Shown here: piece by piece, positions 30,297-38,483 of the stretch
Layout of the letters: each line of letters opens with the position of its first letter
How positions within the stretch are numbered: the stretch's first letter is position 1
NCBI GenBank assembly: GCA_030684575.1
Contig: JAUXVD010000003.1
Coordinates: forward strand, 186,001-250,000
DNA length: 64,000 nt
Origin: Nitrospirota bacterium
Lineage (GTDB): Bacteria > Nitrospirota > Nitrospiria > Nitrospirales > Nitrospiraceae
Reading direction: 5' to 3'
Program-made: the position numbers and the translations under genes
Notes under the pieces: model-generated
Told to the model about the DNA's origin: nothing
Database searches by the model: none
The model's input: the letters and a program-made list of their open reading frames with translations, nothing else

Positions 30297-30756
30297 CGGT
30301 CGACGCCGAATGGATCCACCCTGGGGTCTGTCTTGCGTGAAGTGGCCCAGGAGAGATCGGACTCACGGAACTCCTGCGCCTTGCTCATGCAGGGGCCCTC
30401 TCCATTTCAGCATCGTGCCAGGCTGGAGAGGGGAACTGCCGCTGCCTCTATCCAGAAAATGTGAGTTCCAGTGAAGATGCTGACATAAAACCAATACAGC
30501 GACGACGGATGCCCTATGCAGCGATTGACCCAGCGCACATGTATTGCCTATTCTTGTTGTCTTACAGGCCCATAACTCGGTGTTCCGCTAGGTTGCATGT
30601 CTCGGCTCTGAGGAGACTTCACTTGAGAGTCGAAACGTCCATCGCACAACCTCGCGTATCGCTTTCTCCATACCTATATCTATCGAACCTTTCTGAGTAT
30701 CCGTCCGACTTATTGTCCAGAACCAATAGGCTTGTCTGCTCCATGCCAAGGTCACG
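30297..30756. other. 460-bp gap with no recognisable gene
   Basis: Only short frames without family resemblance are present. An 8-bp inverted pair, CCCTCTCC and GGAGAGGG, with a loop of about 21 bases lies near 30389-30437 and may act as a terminator for the preceding gene. Confidence 0.5.
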
Positions 30757-31107
30757 ATGATACAGACAGTGCTGGGTATATTCATGTTCATGAGTCTGTT
30801 GGCCGGCTCTCCTCACGTCCAGGCGGCGGAGATTTCCTCCAATACTCCAATTGTAATCGAGACGCACGAGGAGCAGCGTAGGGGGCAGCCTGCCAGCACC
30901 ACCAGGATGACACCTCAATCTCTCTCAGACCATGCAGCTGCATACCAACAGAGTGCTGCGCCGAACTGCGAAGGGGAGGCGCCCACCGCCAGCTCTGTCA
31001 CCGCCCTGCTCGGTCGGATCATCCGCTCCTCCGGCACCATTCGTGGCGTGCAATGTCCGATACCACCGGTTCCCGAGCCTATGCCATCACAGGAGACTCA
31101 TCCATGA
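30757..31107 (+). CDS. Small exported protein coupled to a DsbA-like gene
   Basis: A 116-residue protein with a signal peptide (MIQTVLGIFMFMSLLAGS, cleavage near VQAAE). The mature part is polar and Pro/Ser/Thr-rich, with two cysteines (PNCEG and VQCPIP) and no recognised domain. Its stop overlaps the next ATG (ATGA), so translation is linked to the downstream thiol oxidoreductase. The two cysteines make it a conceivable substrate of that enzyme. The family is unknown. Confidence 0.6.
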   Translation: MIQTVLGIFMFMSLLAGSPHVQAAEISSNTPIVIETHEEQRRGQPASTTRMTPQSLSDHAAAYQQSAAPNCEGEAPTASSVTALLGRIIRSSGTIRGVQCPIPPVPEPMPSQETHP

Positions 31108-31877
31108 TCGAGCAGTTTACGTCTGTGCCACGCCGATGCAGTGAGTCAGCGATCTGTGTCCTGACTCTGTTTCTACTCATGCCGCCGTCGTTGTCGTTTG
31201 CCGAACCAGCTGCTTCAGCTGATCCCGCATCAAAGCAGGACATGGAACGGATAATCGAGCAGTACATTCGCACACATCCGGAAGTCATCGAGCAATCGCT
31301 GCAAACCTTAGAGGCGAGGCGGCTGGAAGACGAGCGACAACGCTCAAAGATAGCCCTCGCCACCAGGCAAAACGACTTATTGCATGATCCCGCGTCGCCC
31401 GTCAGCGGCAATCCAGCAGGGGAGGTGACCCTGGTTGAGTTCTTCGACTACCGATGCGGCTATTGCAAACGCGTGGCCGGCGCCGTGACGCAATTGCAAC
31501 AAGACGATGCGCGAGTGAAGGTCGTATATAAAGACCTCCCGATTCTTGGCGAAGCCTCTGAACTCGCAGCAAAAGCGGCGCTTGCCTCGAAGGCGCAAGG
31601 CAAACATCAGGCCTTTCATGAAGCGCTCTTGGCCGCCAATGGCGATATCACGAAAGACTCGATCCTGTCGATCGCCGGAGAGGTCGGGTTGGACGCGAAA
31701 CGCCTTGAAACCGATATGGCCAACCCGGAATGGCAGTCAGCGATCGATCGTAACCGCGCTCTAGCGCGAGACCTTGGTATCAATGGTACGCCGGGCTTCA
31801 TTGTCGGTACGGAACTCGTGCCTGGTGCATTAGATCTAACGGGATTACAAGATCTCATTACACGGGCAGAGAGGTGA
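31104..31877 (+). CDS. DsbA/Com1-family thiol:disulfide oxidoreductase
   Basis: A periplasmic thioredoxin-fold protein of 257 residues. After a signal peptide (VLTLFLLMPPSLSFAEP) and a helical N-terminal region (IIEQYIRTHPEVIEQSL) typical of Com1/ScsC-like proteins, the active site CGYC lies in FFDYRCGYCKR and the cis-proline loop is GTPGFIVG. It probably oxidises or shuffles disulfides in exported proteins. The start overlaps the upstream stop. Two cysteine-bearing exported proteins follow, which are plausible clients. Confidence 0.9.
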   Translation: MIEQFTSVPRRCSESAICVLTLFLLMPPSLSFAEPAASADPASKQDMERIIEQYIRTHPEVIEQSLQTLEARRLEDERQRSKIALATRQNDLLHDPASPVSGNPAGEVTLVEFFDYRCGYCKRVAGAVTQLQQDDARVKVVYKDLPILGEASELAAKAALASKAQGKHQAFHEALLAANGDITKDSILSIAGEVGLDAKRLETDMANPEWQSAIDRNRALARDLGINGTPGFIVGTELVPGALDLTGLQDLITRAER

Positions 31878-32007: not shown

Positions 32008-32943
32008 ATGAAGGTGAGAGACCATGCCCTGCCCCTGTTCTTCGTCTGTGCCGTCACATTCACTGGCTGCGCCACTGAACAGACGGTCGGCAGGAGCGAG
32101 GCATCGTCATCACCTCCCACCGCATCCACTTGGGCGACAACCATTGAGCTTATTAAGCCGGTCCATTTCAGCTCTGCCGATGGAGCGGGCCTCCTAGCTC
32201 CAGCTGGACAATATGTGGTGGACGCGACCGCTCAATCACAGGTGCGTCTGATGCCAGAACAGGGCACCTCGCCCTTCGTCCTGACGGCGGCGTTACAAGC
32301 CCACGACATCGACATCGCTACCCCTGTTGCGGTGACCTTTTCCGAGCGGGAGGATGAGCCCCATGTGTTGCTCCTCTTGCCTGACGGACGAGCCCTGGAC
32401 GCGATTGGCTCGTTCAACGGCGTTCGCTCACGCGAGGTCATTCGCACGAATCGCCTCTACAGCCTTTACGCTGAAGCCGGGGTCGTACGCCTCGGCTCCC
32501 GCGTCGTGGAAACCCTGCCTTCTGACGGACCCGCATCTACCTCCTCGCACCCTCGAGCAGGACTCGGCTCATTCAACGAGCTCAGTTCAGTTGGTGATAC
32601 TGAGTCCATGCGGATGCAACTGTATATGGAGCGCCGGTCGAAGTTTAACGAGACGCTTTCGAACATCCTCGCGAAACAGAATCAGCCGTTTCAATTTGAG
32701 GTTGACTGGGACCGTCCGGGCGGCGATTACGCACAGCGAGCGGAGCCCACACCAGAGTCTTGTCGACTTGTGTGCGCCGCCAATCCAAGTTGCCAAGCGT
32801 TTACCTTTGTGAAAGCGGCTTCTGGCGCGGCGCTAGGACAATGTTTCCTGAAACGGACGGAGCCACCCCCTGTGGCCAACAGGGGGTGTATCTCAGGGAA
32901 ACGGACCAGCTTGCAGGAGGGGATAATAAAAAATATGAAATAG
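32008..32943 (+). CDS. PAN-domain lipoprotein with novel N-terminal module
   Basis: A 311-residue lipoprotein with FTGC lipobox (Cys21). Residues 46-150 form a module shared with the next gene: PVHF...DG, AGQY.VD, SPFVLTA, HVLLLLPDGRA and GSFNGVRSRE. Residues 228-300 are PAN/Apple-like, with SCRLVCAANPSCQAFTFVKA and two later cysteines, a fold that binds carbohydrate or protein. AGGAGG seven bases upstream supports the start. The DsbA-like gene upstream could form its disulfides. Probably outer-membrane anchored; the ligand is unknown. Confidence 0.8.
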   Translation: MKVRDHALPLFFVCAVTFTGCATEQTVGRSEASSSPPTASTWATTIELIKPVHFSSADGAGLLAPAGQYVVDATAQSQVRLMPEQGTSPFVLTAALQAHDIDIATPVAVTFSEREDEPHVLLLLPDGRALDAIGSFNGVRSREVIRTNRLYSLYAEAGVVRLGSRVVETLPSDGPASTSSHPRAGLGSFNELSSVGDTESMRMQLYMERRSKFNETLSNILAKQNQPFQFEVDWDRPGGDYAQRAEPTPESCRLVCAANPSCQAFTFVKAASGAALGQCFLKRTEPPPVANRGCISGKRTSLQEGIIKNMK

Positions 32944-33080
32944 CAATCCTATCACTCAGAGGGAGGATGCCGATGAGGCATCTCATCGTAATTCCTCGGA
33001 ACAGCGCAAGGCAAAGGTTCCAGGAACCGTATCCTTGGCTTCTAGGTTTTTAGCGGAACGGACCATCTCCAGGAGAACCT

Positions 33081-35993
33081 ATGATACGTAAATACACAGC
33101 CCTCGCGGCAGTGGGTACAGCGATCTTTTCAGCGGTTGCCTGGATGACCGTTCTCGCCCTTACCTCCTGGGCGGGCTCATCGTCGGCTGTCACGTTGCAT
33201 CAACCGGTTCATTTCATAGCGTCGGACGGCAGCGACCTCACCGTCGACGCCGGAAGCTACGAGGTGGATATGTCGGTCGGGGCGCAGCTCAGATTGCATG
33301 CGAAAGATGGAACGCCTTTCTTCCTCGATGCGCAGGCGACAACTCATGGCGAAACGATTGATTCGCCGCTGGCCGTGACCGTCTCAGGCGACGCCCCAGA
33401 CCTGGTTCACATTGTCCTTCTCTTGCCGAACGGCCAGGCCTGGGATGTGCCAGGTACATTCTCCGGCGCTCGGCCGCGAGGCACTCAATTCCTGCTTGCC
33501 TCCTCATCGCAGATCAAGTTTTCAGTCGCGCAAACAGCACCACCCGTACAGTCGGTCGTGCCATTCGAGGGTGCCAAAGGGCATGTCCTTCAAGAGCTGG
33601 TTTCTCCCCAATTAGGCAACTTGCAATTCGAAGTCATGAAGCAATCACCCACGTTTTCCGTGGTTAGTTACGGGGGCAAATGTCTGGATTTCGGCGCTCC
33701 ACCACAAATAGTTGGAGCGCCCGTGTTCCTCTACGAATGTAATGGGACGATAGCCCAGCAGGTTCTTGTGCAGGAGATCAATGAACAGCATGATGTGATT
33801 CTCCGAGCCGGCTCGAAGGTGATCGGTGTGAAGGGAGGAAATTCGGCTCCACCTGTCCTCTCTCGCGGCATCGATCAGACATTCTTGGGACAGCTTCAAG
33901 GTCAGGTGTTTGCGGTTATGGCACAACAGCCGACATTGGAACTTCAGGATGAGCAAAACCGCCAAACAGTGCTGTCGTCCGGGGCCGGTCAGGTCTTCGC
34001 GCTCGACGGTGACAGCGTCATCTTGGCCTCGGATCGGACTCGTGTGGTGGAAGTTCTGAAAAATCGTGGTGCCAATCGGACTCCTCTCGTCTTAGGCGCT
34101 CGAGATCTTGCAGATAACGAGTTCTGGACCTTTGTGGCCACCGACAAGAGCAACCGGAAGCCCACCAGCGGATTTGTGCGTGTGCCGCAGGAAATGAGTT
34201 TTGTCAGCGCCTTGGAGCAGGCACATTGGGGTACCGTCATTGAAATCGCGCCTGGCACCTCGATCGAGTTGAGAGACTACCCCAATCCCTATAATCCGGC
34301 GCTGGACTATGCCCATGTGCACCTTGGGGGTGGCATAACCATTCGCGGCGATCGACGTGGTACCCTCCTCGGGCCTGAACTGTCGATGCGGAAGGTCACG
34401 AAAGGAGCGATGATCGCAGTTGAAGGCCCTGATGTACGTATCACTGGACTGCGGTTGCGAGGACCAAGCCGGGATACAGACATTGATCAAACCCCCGTCT
34501 GGGGAATTCTTATCGAGCAAGACCATCTCCACGTCAGAATGATCATCGACCATAACGACATCTCGGACTGGCCGGGCGCAGCGGTGACTGTCACTGGGGC
34601 CGCAGAGCCTGGAATCTGCACGGACAAGGGGGACCCGAGAGGTTCACGGCTCAATAACCTCCGCGTAGTGCGCAATTTCATTCACCATAACCAAAAGCAG
34701 AATGCGGGATACGGTGTTCGGGCCGAGCAGAACTCGTTCCCGCTGATAGAGGGCAACACCTTCGTCTCGAACCGTCACGCCATCAAGGCATCTGGATGGG
34801 GATGCACCAGCTATCTCGCCTGGAACAACCTTGTGCTCTGGGCCGCGCCGACACAGACTAAAGCCGTGGTTGCAAGATGGACCGCTCATGACTTTGATGT
34901 GCACGGAACCGGTGACAACGGGTTTGGTGGCCGCGCAGGGCAGTACTTCGAGATTGCAGGGAATACGTTCTTGGGCACCCAATACAAACATGAGAATTTC
35001 GACCTGCGTGGCGAACCGACTTACCGAGTCGAGTTTCATCGCAACGTGTCGCTGCGAAGCCGAGAAGACTCCGTCGTCTGCAGTAATTGCGAGGCAAAGA
35101 ATAAACTCCTCGTATATGACAATAATCAGTTCAAAACGAATCCAAATCCAACGACTCGACTAGGCGTGGGAGATTTCGACGGCGACGGAACGGACGATGT
35201 CTTTCTCGCCACTGGGGCGGCATGGTATTACGCGCCTGCAGGCAATGCCGAGTGGCGTTTTCTCAATGCGCAGACGGACGGAATTGTGAACTTACGTTTT
35301 GGAGATTTCGACGGAGATGGACGCACGGATGTCTTCACTCAGCGTGGACGCGACTGGCTCATCTCCTGGGGCGGGGCCTCGCCATGGGAAAAGATCAACG
35401 AAAGCAATCCTGCACTGAGCGAGTTTCGTGTCGGCGATTTCATCGGTGATAAACGTGCCGATATTTTTTATGCCGACGGGCAGCGTTGGTGGGTCTCCGA
35501 TGGCGGAGTTGGCCCGTTCGTCAATACGCAGGATTCAAGCAAACGAACCGCCGATCTTGGGTTTGGGGATTTCAACGGCGATGGCAAGATGGATGTCGTG
35601 GGCGTCGAGAGCGGCAAGTGGAAGGTCTCGTTGAACGCCACTGGACCGTGGGATGGCTTTCCATTGCGCGCGGCACTGACGAAAACAATGGCGGGGCTGA
35701 TGATTGCCGATCTCAATGGCGACGGCCGTGCCGATATTGTTACCGCTGAGCTTGGCATCAAGATGAATGGCACCCAAGGCATTCCTGTCTGGAAGTGGAA
35801 AGTCTCCTGGGCAGGCACAGGTAATTGGACAGCGCTTCGCACGGTCTATGGCCCTCCGGTTGGGATCGGGCGATTCGATGCAGGGCGTGGCGCAGATATC
35901 CTGTTCTGGGGAAGCACAACCGTCAACACCCTCTATATGCTCTCCTCAGGAGTGGGCACTCCTATTCTGCAAAGCCGGCAGGATATGCGCTGA
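33081..35993 (+). CDS. Large exported protein: shared module, lectin-like, beta-helix and FG-GAP repeats
   Basis: A 970-residue protein with an N-terminal membrane/signal segment (residues 8-32). Residues 38-140 repeat the module of the upstream lipoprotein (QPVHF, AGSYEVD, HIVLLLPNGQA, GTFSGARPRG). Residues 190-250 resemble a ricin-type lectin segment (GGKCLDFG, VFLYECNG). Residues 380-680 look like a right-handed beta-helix (GGITIRGDRRGTLLGP, VRITGLRLRG, NTFVSNRHAIKASG). Residues 690-890 carry at least five FG-GAP/VCBS-like repeats such as GVGDFDGDGTDDVF, with calcium-loop spacing. It may bind or cleave a surface polysaccharide; catalysis is not evident. Confidence 0.82.
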   Translation: MIRKYTALAAVGTAIFSAVAWMTVLALTSWAGSSSAVTLHQPVHFIASDGSDLTVDAGSYEVDMSVGAQLRLHAKDGTPFFLDAQATTHGETIDSPLAVTVSGDAPDLVHIVLLLPNGQAWDVPGTFSGARPRGTQFLLASSSQIKFSVAQTAPPVQSVVPFEGAKGHVLQELVSPQLGNLQFEVMKQSPTFSVVSYGGKCLDFGAPPQIVGAPVFLYECNGTIAQQVLVQEINEQHDVILRAGSKVIGVKGGNSAPPVLSRGIDQTFLGQLQGQVFAVMAQQPTLELQDEQNRQTVLSSGAGQVFALDGDSVILASDRTRVVEVLKNRGANRTPLVLGARDLADNEFWTFVATDKSNRKPTSGFVRVPQEMSFVSALEQAHWGTVIEIAPGTSIELRDYPNPYNPALDYAHVHLGGGITIRGDRRGTLLGPELSMRKVTKGAMIAVEGPDVRITGLRLRGPSRDTDIDQTPVWGILIEQDHLHVRMIIDHNDISDWPGAAVTVTGAAEPGICTDKGDPRGSRLNNLRVVRNFIHHNQKQNAGYGVRAEQNSFPLIEGNTFVSNRHAIKASGWGCTSYLAWNNLVLWAAPTQTKAVVARWTAHDFDVHGTGDNGFGGRAGQYFEIAGNTFLGTQYKHENFDLRGEPTYRVEFHRNVSLRSREDSVVCSNCEAKNKLLVYDNNQFKTNPNPTTRLGVGDFDGDGTDDVFLATGAAWYYAPAGNAEWRFLNAQTDGIVNLRFGDFDGDGRTDVFTQRGRDWLISWGGASPWEKINESNPALSEFRVGDFIGDKRADIFYADGQRWWVSDGGVGPFVNTQDSSKRTADLGFGDFNGDGKMDVVGVESGKWKVSLNATGPWDGFPLRAALTKTMAGLMIADLNGDGRADIVTAELGIKMNGTQGIPVWKWKVSWAGTGNWTALRTVYGPPVGIGRFDAGRGADILFWGSTTVNTLYMLSSGVGTPILQSRQDMR

Positions 35994-38180: not shown

Positions 38181-38483
38181 GTGTTGCATCACTCCGATCT
38201 GGGGAACCTGTACACCAGTGAGCCCTTCAAGCGGAATATGGCCGGCCACGGCGCGATCTATGGCATGAGCCGAGCCGGCAACTGCTTGGACAATGCCGCG
38301 ATGGGGAGCTGCTTCTCCTCGCTCAAGACCGAACACGCCGTGACGAAAACGTATCGCACGCGAGACCAAGCCAAAGCGGACCTGTTCGATTACAGTGACC
38401 GCTGCTATCATCCTAGGCGGTGGCACTCGACGTTGGGCTATCTCAGTCCGATGGAGTTCGAACGACAGTCGGAATTAGTGTAG
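38181..38483 (+). pseudogene. IS3-family transposase remnant (C-terminal integrase part)
   Basis: About 100 residues match the C-terminal half of IS3-family OrfB: LHHSDLGNLYTSE carries the second catalytic Asp, then CLDNAAMGSCFSSLKTE, YRTRDQAKADLFDY and PRRWHSTLGYLSPMEF. At the position 36 residues after that Asp, where the DDE Glu belongs (NAAME in active enzymes), there is Gly42. Only the C-terminal part is visible, there is no orfA, and no inverted ends were found. It cannot be an active transposase. Confidence 0.85.

Follow-up and report, generated by a model that had tools for sequence, protein, structure and literature searches.

Introduction

The natural substrates of bacterial metacaspases are, to our knowledge, largely unknown. 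Type I metacaspases and orthocaspases carry a His-Cys dyad (PMC4357240; PMC6426788; PMC3501461). The family favours Arg or Lys in its substrates (PMC4357240), and in TbMCA2 the basic preference is set by two Asp residues (PMC6426788). The Csx29/Csx30/CASP-sigma system combines a caspase-like protease with a protease-regulated inhibitor of an extracytoplasmic function (ECF) sigma factor, and the same paper describes anti-sigma proteolysis of the RseA/DegS type (PMC10028731). In type IX secretion of Porphyromonas, unrelated exported proteins have a common C-terminal domain (CTD), which is removed at its boundary by the PorU sortase (PMC8545088; PMC4560394). Marker domains of extracellular contractile injection systems (eCIS) and type VI secretion systems (T6SS), e.g. 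DUF4157, are joined to diverse passengers encoded close to phage-tail-like genes (PMC8213781). The locus analyzed here shares traits with all of these. It lies in a stretch of 64,000 nucleotides from a Nitrospirota bacterium (GCA_030684575.1, contig JAUXVD010000003.1, positions 186,001 to 250,000; hereafter the window), where two adjacent genes for exported proteins encode a common module that ends at a conserved Arg.

This module, a domain of about 97 residues, represents a large undescribed family. An ECF-type promoter marks one regulon that includes the module loci. The chances are about even that the regulon constitutes an ECF-controlled secretome, in which the junctions between module and cargo are cut by the regulon's exported metacaspase. 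The family, the regulon promoter, the co-inheritance with the metacaspase and the common motif were each established computationally.

The module and its family

The two proteins of the window and their parts are:

32008..32943 (+): putative lipoprotein of 311 aa with module and PAN domain; open reading frame (ORF), BLASTP, Pfam and AlphaFold2 (AF2) data mark the module as an independent domain
32140..32433 (+): module copy 1, residues 45-142 of the lipoprotein, by profile boundaries; hmmsearch E about 1e-31
32416..32436 (+): junction Arg motif NGVRSR/E (the slash marks the candidate cut), residues 137-143, beyond the last strand in AF2
32710..32853 (+): PAN domain, residues 235-282 of the lipoprotein; PF14295 E=1.9e-10
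33081..35993 (+): exported protein of 970 aa with module, beta-helix and FG-GAP repeats; orthologue in the relative G017, 78% identical
33189..33479 (+): module copy 2, residues 37-133 of the 970-aa protein; hmmsearch E about 1e-30; AF2 mean predicted local distance difference test (pLDDT) 90.5
33462..33482 (+): junction Arg motif SGARPR/G, residues 128-134 of the 970-aa protein, by motif alignment and AF2
35568..35741 (+): best stretch of the FG-GAP repeat region, residues 830-887 of the 970-aa protein; PF13517 E=9e-19

An earlier note on this DNA had proposed that both proteins share an ordered motif series within an undescribed N-terminal unit; both ORFs lie where the note had placed them. 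BLASTP aligns residues 40-142 of the lipoprotein with residues 28-133 of the 970-aa protein (42% identity, E=3e-20), which confirms a homologous module. The series itself is genuine: over 28-39 family members, F, G, Y, H, P, G and the final R show no or almost no variation. The similarity is far above chance. A query of 106 residues from the 970-aa protein revealed eight copies in the same genome: the window, on contig C3, has two of them, and the other six lie on contig C23 at 87.8 to 123.6 kb. Module matches were obtained in 7 of 41 close relatives, and a profile search of the collected DNA yielded 53 domain matches in 48 ORFs. About 90 copies were collected overall. The median pairwise identity of the family is 35%.

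In a sample of the phylum, 19 of 395 Nitrospirota genomes were module-positive, all of them Nitrospirales, the order of the window (two families); copy numbers in this sample are lower bounds, with at most 12 candidates scored per genome. Named records with the module are assigned to Nitrospira, Nitrospirales or Nitrospirae, besides one metagenome-assembled genome called Gammaproteobacteria. The search beyond Nitrospirota rested on a single peptide pattern, and absence there is poorly tested. The genome labelled Gammaproteobacteria (L095, JANYHD010000039.1) has two adjacent modules together with metacaspase and sigma homologues on one contig, by gene transfer or mis-binning.

Among 39 members scanned against Pfam-A and NCBIfam, no family was matched by more than two members (best single match E=0.0019). 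PDB sequences gave no match to the module profile (best E=0.022). Identity with a known domain is ruled out at the sequence level by these scans, and the match to a named family that the earlier note had set as refuting its view did not appear in them. AF2 predicts an all-beta domain from a 28-sequence alignment. The confidence drops to a pLDDT of 57 from residue 101 onward, so the junction Arg, residue 103, lies outside the confident fold. In the model of the full PAN lipoprotein, the module (residues 44-133) has a pLDDT of about 90 or above and Arg142 is situated beyond its last strand. Structural similarities are weak and no proof of a new fold (Foldseek best E=0.036; VIA-align best Z=4.2, 70 aligned residues at 3.1 A). 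Matches to PH-, lipocalin- and beta-barrel-like folds were all weak and were not used for an assignment. A viral origin was rejected, as the module has neither a relative in viral contigs nor a confident viral fold match.

The cargo is diverse. Among 64 module proteins, seven carry PAN, two tachylectin, two FG-GAP and two beta-helix domains; GDSL lipase, endonuclease/phosphatase, M19, CARDB, TIG and others occur in single instances. For the window pair, the PAN and FG-GAP assignments stood, while the beta-helix of the 970-aa protein falls slightly under the Pfam cut-off (3.3e-5) and its ricin-type lectin match is weak (E=0.035). The module is an undescribed unit common to otherwise unlike exported proteins of one coordinated system, as had been suggested. 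Its N-terminal position holds for most proteins, in which it directly follows the signal peptide. Some proteins carry two modules. In genera g15 and g22, some modules lie near the C-terminus, and another SG[VIL]F[AS]RGVE-type site is found ahead of them (L100, L103, L112, L113 and L091). Cutting at this site and at the junction would therefore free the module itself. A pure N-terminal cap is ruled out because of the doubled and C-terminal modules.

The junction motif, the metacaspase and the anti-sigma factor

The last module residue is Arg in 89 of 89 complete distinct modules (consensus SG[IV][RQ][SP]R[GA]); a match counted as complete only if it extended to the end of the model, a condition that favours Arg. 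Behind the signal peptide, further exported proteins encoded in the island show a comparable site, such as GIESRGLN or EVGSRGMP. Exported ORFs were called with a home-made rule for signal peptides; on this basis, 25 of the 313 exported ORFs at module loci that lack the module have [VI]x[ST]R[GA] after the signal peptide. The corresponding counts were 0/34 in the window and the C23 flanks and 1/214 in control DNA (680 kb). The motif spans 14 unrelated families versus a shuffle mean of 3.3 and a maximum of 10 (1000 shuffles). Scrambled motifs reached 1-3 families. One exported protein, in which VESRGL follows the signal peptide, has a weak eCIS_core (DUF4157) match (E=0.036; L010:4053-4721, i.e. 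C23:104052-104720).

Genes for an ECF sigma factor, an adjacent zf-HC2 anti-sigma factor (matches to PF04542, PF04545 and PF13490) and a metacaspase with a signal for the general secretory (Sec) pathway (C23:127826) are located near modules. The metacaspase matches PF00656 (E=1.7e-26) and metacaspase-1 structures (E=2e-25), and its dyad is intact in the SGHG and DSCHSG motifs. In an alignment to Yca1, the Asp residues of its IND and DSC motifs are matched and, judged from their spacing, would be equivalent to Asp95 and Asp211 of TbMCA2; they may thus form an acidic S1 pocket for a basic P1. The protein contains four copies of the motif versus 0.2 expected, one of them in the linker between p20 and p10. 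This linker has [ST]R in 17 of the 18 orthologues with the catalytic Cys and PR in the remaining one. Scored with the module-junction matrix, the best linker Arg ranks first to seventh of the 37-59 Args per metacaspase, so the linker match is suggestive only. One orthologue (G375:C26:132444-134732) has an in-frame TGA and is either a pseudogene or affected by a sequencing error.

In all 16 anti-sigma orthologues, R[GS][LIV] flanks the membrane helix on what is predicted to be its outer side. A matrix trained on module junctions alone places this juxtamembrane Arg at the top of all Args in 14 of the 16. The test is free of the circularity that affects the motif enrichment (see below).

The metacaspase is inherited together with the module. 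Among the relatives, an orthologue is present in six of the seven that have the module and in none of the 34 that do not. In the phylum sample, 19 genomes have the module, 19 the metacaspase and 16 both (Fisher p=7e-23, a value that is overstated because genomes are not independent). Only the C14 protein beside the sigma and anti-sigma genes was covered by this test.

The regulon promoter and the window operon

The two genes of module proteins belong to an operon, which starts with:

30684..30712 (+): ECF-type promoter-like element, CGAACCTTTCTGAGTATCCGTCCGACTTA, 73 bp ahead of the first operon ORF, one mismatch; score 16.6, top of 63 upstream regions of the window
30757..31107 (+): small exported protein of 116 aa, operon gene 1, N-terminus signal-peptide-like; a homologue precedes DsbA in the relative G017
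31053..31877 (+): DsbA/ScsC-like thiol-disulfide protein, PF01323 E=1.3e-27 and PF18312 (ScsC_N); homologues lie beside module genes in the relatives G017 and G002

The regulon promoter reads TGAACC-N16-CGACTNA. Of 98 regions upstream of module and sigma genes, 27 contain TGAAC-N17-CGAC; in shuffles, no pattern exceeded 4. Allowing a spacing of 16-18, the promoter precedes 25/90 module genes and 57/303 other exported genes of module loci (together 82/393), compared with 2/679 control genes. In the genome of the window it is located before metacaspase, gp19-like, papain-like, C14 and module genes. The strict pattern GAACCTTN{13,15}CGACNNA has only seven exact matches in 3.79 Mb, among them the element at 30684, and five of the seven lie at the two module loci; a reversed control pattern has four matches genome-wide. 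The element at 30684 precedes the operon of 30757, DsbA, PAN lipoprotein and 970-aa protein. Upstream-region scoring in the window found no own promoter directly upstream of 32008 or 33081.

The neighbour and cargo count suggested by the earlier note bears out its choice of partners, with PAN in 7/64 module proteins and DsbA adjacent to modules in the window and in both relatives named above. DsbA probably serves the Cys-rich PAN cargo. Further downstream in the window, the ORF at 38181-38483 (+) is probably a transposase remnant; it resembles the C-terminal end of an IS3-type transposase.

Interpretation

In Nitrospirales, the all-beta module would label a polymorphic set of exported proteins (Sec substrates or lipoproteins) that belong to a single ECF-sigma regulon. 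The C-terminal edge of the module would be a linear cut site, [VI]x[SP]R/[GA], for the exported metacaspase of the regulon. Since the same motif recurs in the junctions, the protease linker, the anti-sigma factor and other exported proteins, cleavage by the metacaspase is the simplest account. From these patterns we infer proteolysis, its agent and its order; before cleavage, the module may act as a chaperone or sorting domain.

An extracytoplasmic caspase circuit, in which one exported metacaspase activates itself, cuts the anti-sigma factor and, at the same kind of site, matures the module-bearing surface and secreted proteins, is proposed more tentatively, its probability being somewhat short of even. 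In the order proposed for the main reading, the metacaspase would be exported and self-activated at its own p20/p10 linker motif. It could then cleave the zf-HC2 anti-sigma factor at its juxtamembrane site in the periplasm and so free the ECF sigma factor. The sigma factor would switch on the TGAACC-N16-CGACTNA promoters, including that of the window operon. DsbA would assist the folding of the Cys-rich PAN cargo. Finally, a cut after the junction Arg would part module and cargo, so that lectin, PAN, beta-helix or enzyme domains become exposed or released.

Several points weigh against cleavage by this metacaspase. The analysis is based on sequences and models, and cleavage was not observed. 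In three module-bearing genomes no metacaspase orthologue was detected, and in three genomes with the metacaspase no module. The same island encodes a papain-like C1 protein (C23:101404) and two further C14 proteins. The motif enrichment test is partly circular, because the first island proteins had been read before the pattern was drawn up. The residue after the cut (P1') is Asp in 8 of 77 distinct junctions, including several PAN lipoproteins, and Glu in the PAN copy of the window; Asp or Glu at P1' may make a poor cut site.

The strongest rival, though unlikely, leaves the module attached as a domain for surface binding, sorting or recruitment that serves an outer-membrane partner of the regulon, and treats the Arg motif as a recognition element or linker. 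It accords with a well folded, conserved domain and with the lipobox that precedes the module in about one in six proteins (12/72); the one of the PAN lipoprotein, FTGC, is atypical but plausible. Short module proteins, which contain little beyond the module and a Lys-rich tail, also fit, as do two conserved core genes of undescribed function, 123694 and 124616, which accompany modules. However, permanent attachment leaves the motif unexplained in the metacaspase linker, in the anti-sigma segment and in module-free exported proteins. The role as attachment or recruitment unit, which the earlier note had suggested, is less likely; the evidence favours a pro- or sorting-type domain that ends at the conserved Arg site.

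Processing of the Arg site by another protease is less probable still. Candidates are the papain-like C1 protein, the other C14 proteins or a general periplasmic or trypsin-like enzyme, and the papain-like gene as well as one of the two further C14 genes carry the promoter element. But the C14 protein beside the sigma and anti-sigma genes, the one covered by the co-inheritance test, tracks the module closely and carries the motif, whereas the other two C14 proteins are without it. A general association with C14 proteins was discarded on the latter ground.

The island also encodes gp19-like proteins with twin-arginine translocation (Tat) signals and a VgrG-like protein with a Sec signal. On contig C23 of the window's genome (G000), Tat-signal proteins with a match to the T4 gp19 tail tube and the VgrG-like protein (Phage_GPD E=3e-64, Sec-like signal peptide) are encoded at 97217-98452, 106095-107192 (+) and 107270-109195 (-) (L009/L010). 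An exported tail-like tube would be unusual. A sheath gene is absent from the island, and the search for baseplate genes was limited to GPD. The only sheath gene of the genome belongs to a separate cluster on contig C14 (about 106-112 kb), which also encodes two gp19 tube proteins, has a weak match to GPD and probably represents an ordinary eCIS. An autotransporter beta-domain protein (E=2.8e-37; L009:11486-13015, i.e. C23:91485-93014) is encoded inside the module island and has an orthologue in G009. That the module labels cargo for an exported device of Tat gp19-like tubes and a Sec VgrG-like spike, comparable to T6SS/eCIS effector markers, is very improbable: Tat-gp19 or exported VgrG occurs in 5/6 module-positive versus 0/19 module-negative genomes of the genus (p=1e-4) and the gp19 genes have the same promoter element, but module genes are present where neither was detected (G006, G038), the sole sheath gene is on another contig, and the cargo leaves by Sec or as lipoproteins.

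Comparison with known systems

An earlier description of an arrangement of exported metacaspase, ECF sigma factor and module was not found in the open-licence literature. For one exported metacaspase, the analysis provides a set of candidate substrates, pinpoints an exact candidate cut site and names a regulatory loop. The new domain family marks the proteins that Nitrospirales display at the surface or secrete, and the host group comprises ecologically important nitrite oxidisers. If the circuit is true, sensing, transcription and protein maturation are coupled via one protease motif.

PorU is a clan CD (caspase-fold) cysteine peptidase. The module resembles the type IX CTD as a common domain on unrelated exported proteins, with removal at the boundary proposed here. 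The type IX signal is C-terminal, whereas the module is mostly N-terminal and has no Pfam or NCBIfam match. It occurs in Nitrospirales, not in Bacteroidota, and the candidate protease is a C14 metacaspase. The module is not identified as a type IX CTD, given its position mostly after the signal peptide and the lack of a match to sorting-domain profiles. Marker domains of eCIS and T6SS are likewise fused to varied passengers near tail-like genes; the module differs in having no sequence match to them, a Sec-exported cargo and an island without sheath.

The Csx29/Csx30/CASP-sigma system is cytoplasmic and RNA-activated by CRISPR. In contrast, the present locus encodes a Sec-signal metacaspase, a membrane anti-sigma factor of the zf-HC2 type and exported candidate substrates. 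With RseA/DegS-type proteolysis it shares a candidate periplasmic cut beside the anti-sigma membrane helix, but here the candidate protease is a metacaspase and the site is also common to secreted cargo. Type I metacaspases and orthocaspases are similar in the His-Cys dyad, the p20 similarity to Yca1 and the family preference for Arg or Lys. The protein described here differs from them in being exported, encoded beside an ECF sigma and anti-sigma pair, and accompanied by a candidate substrate set.

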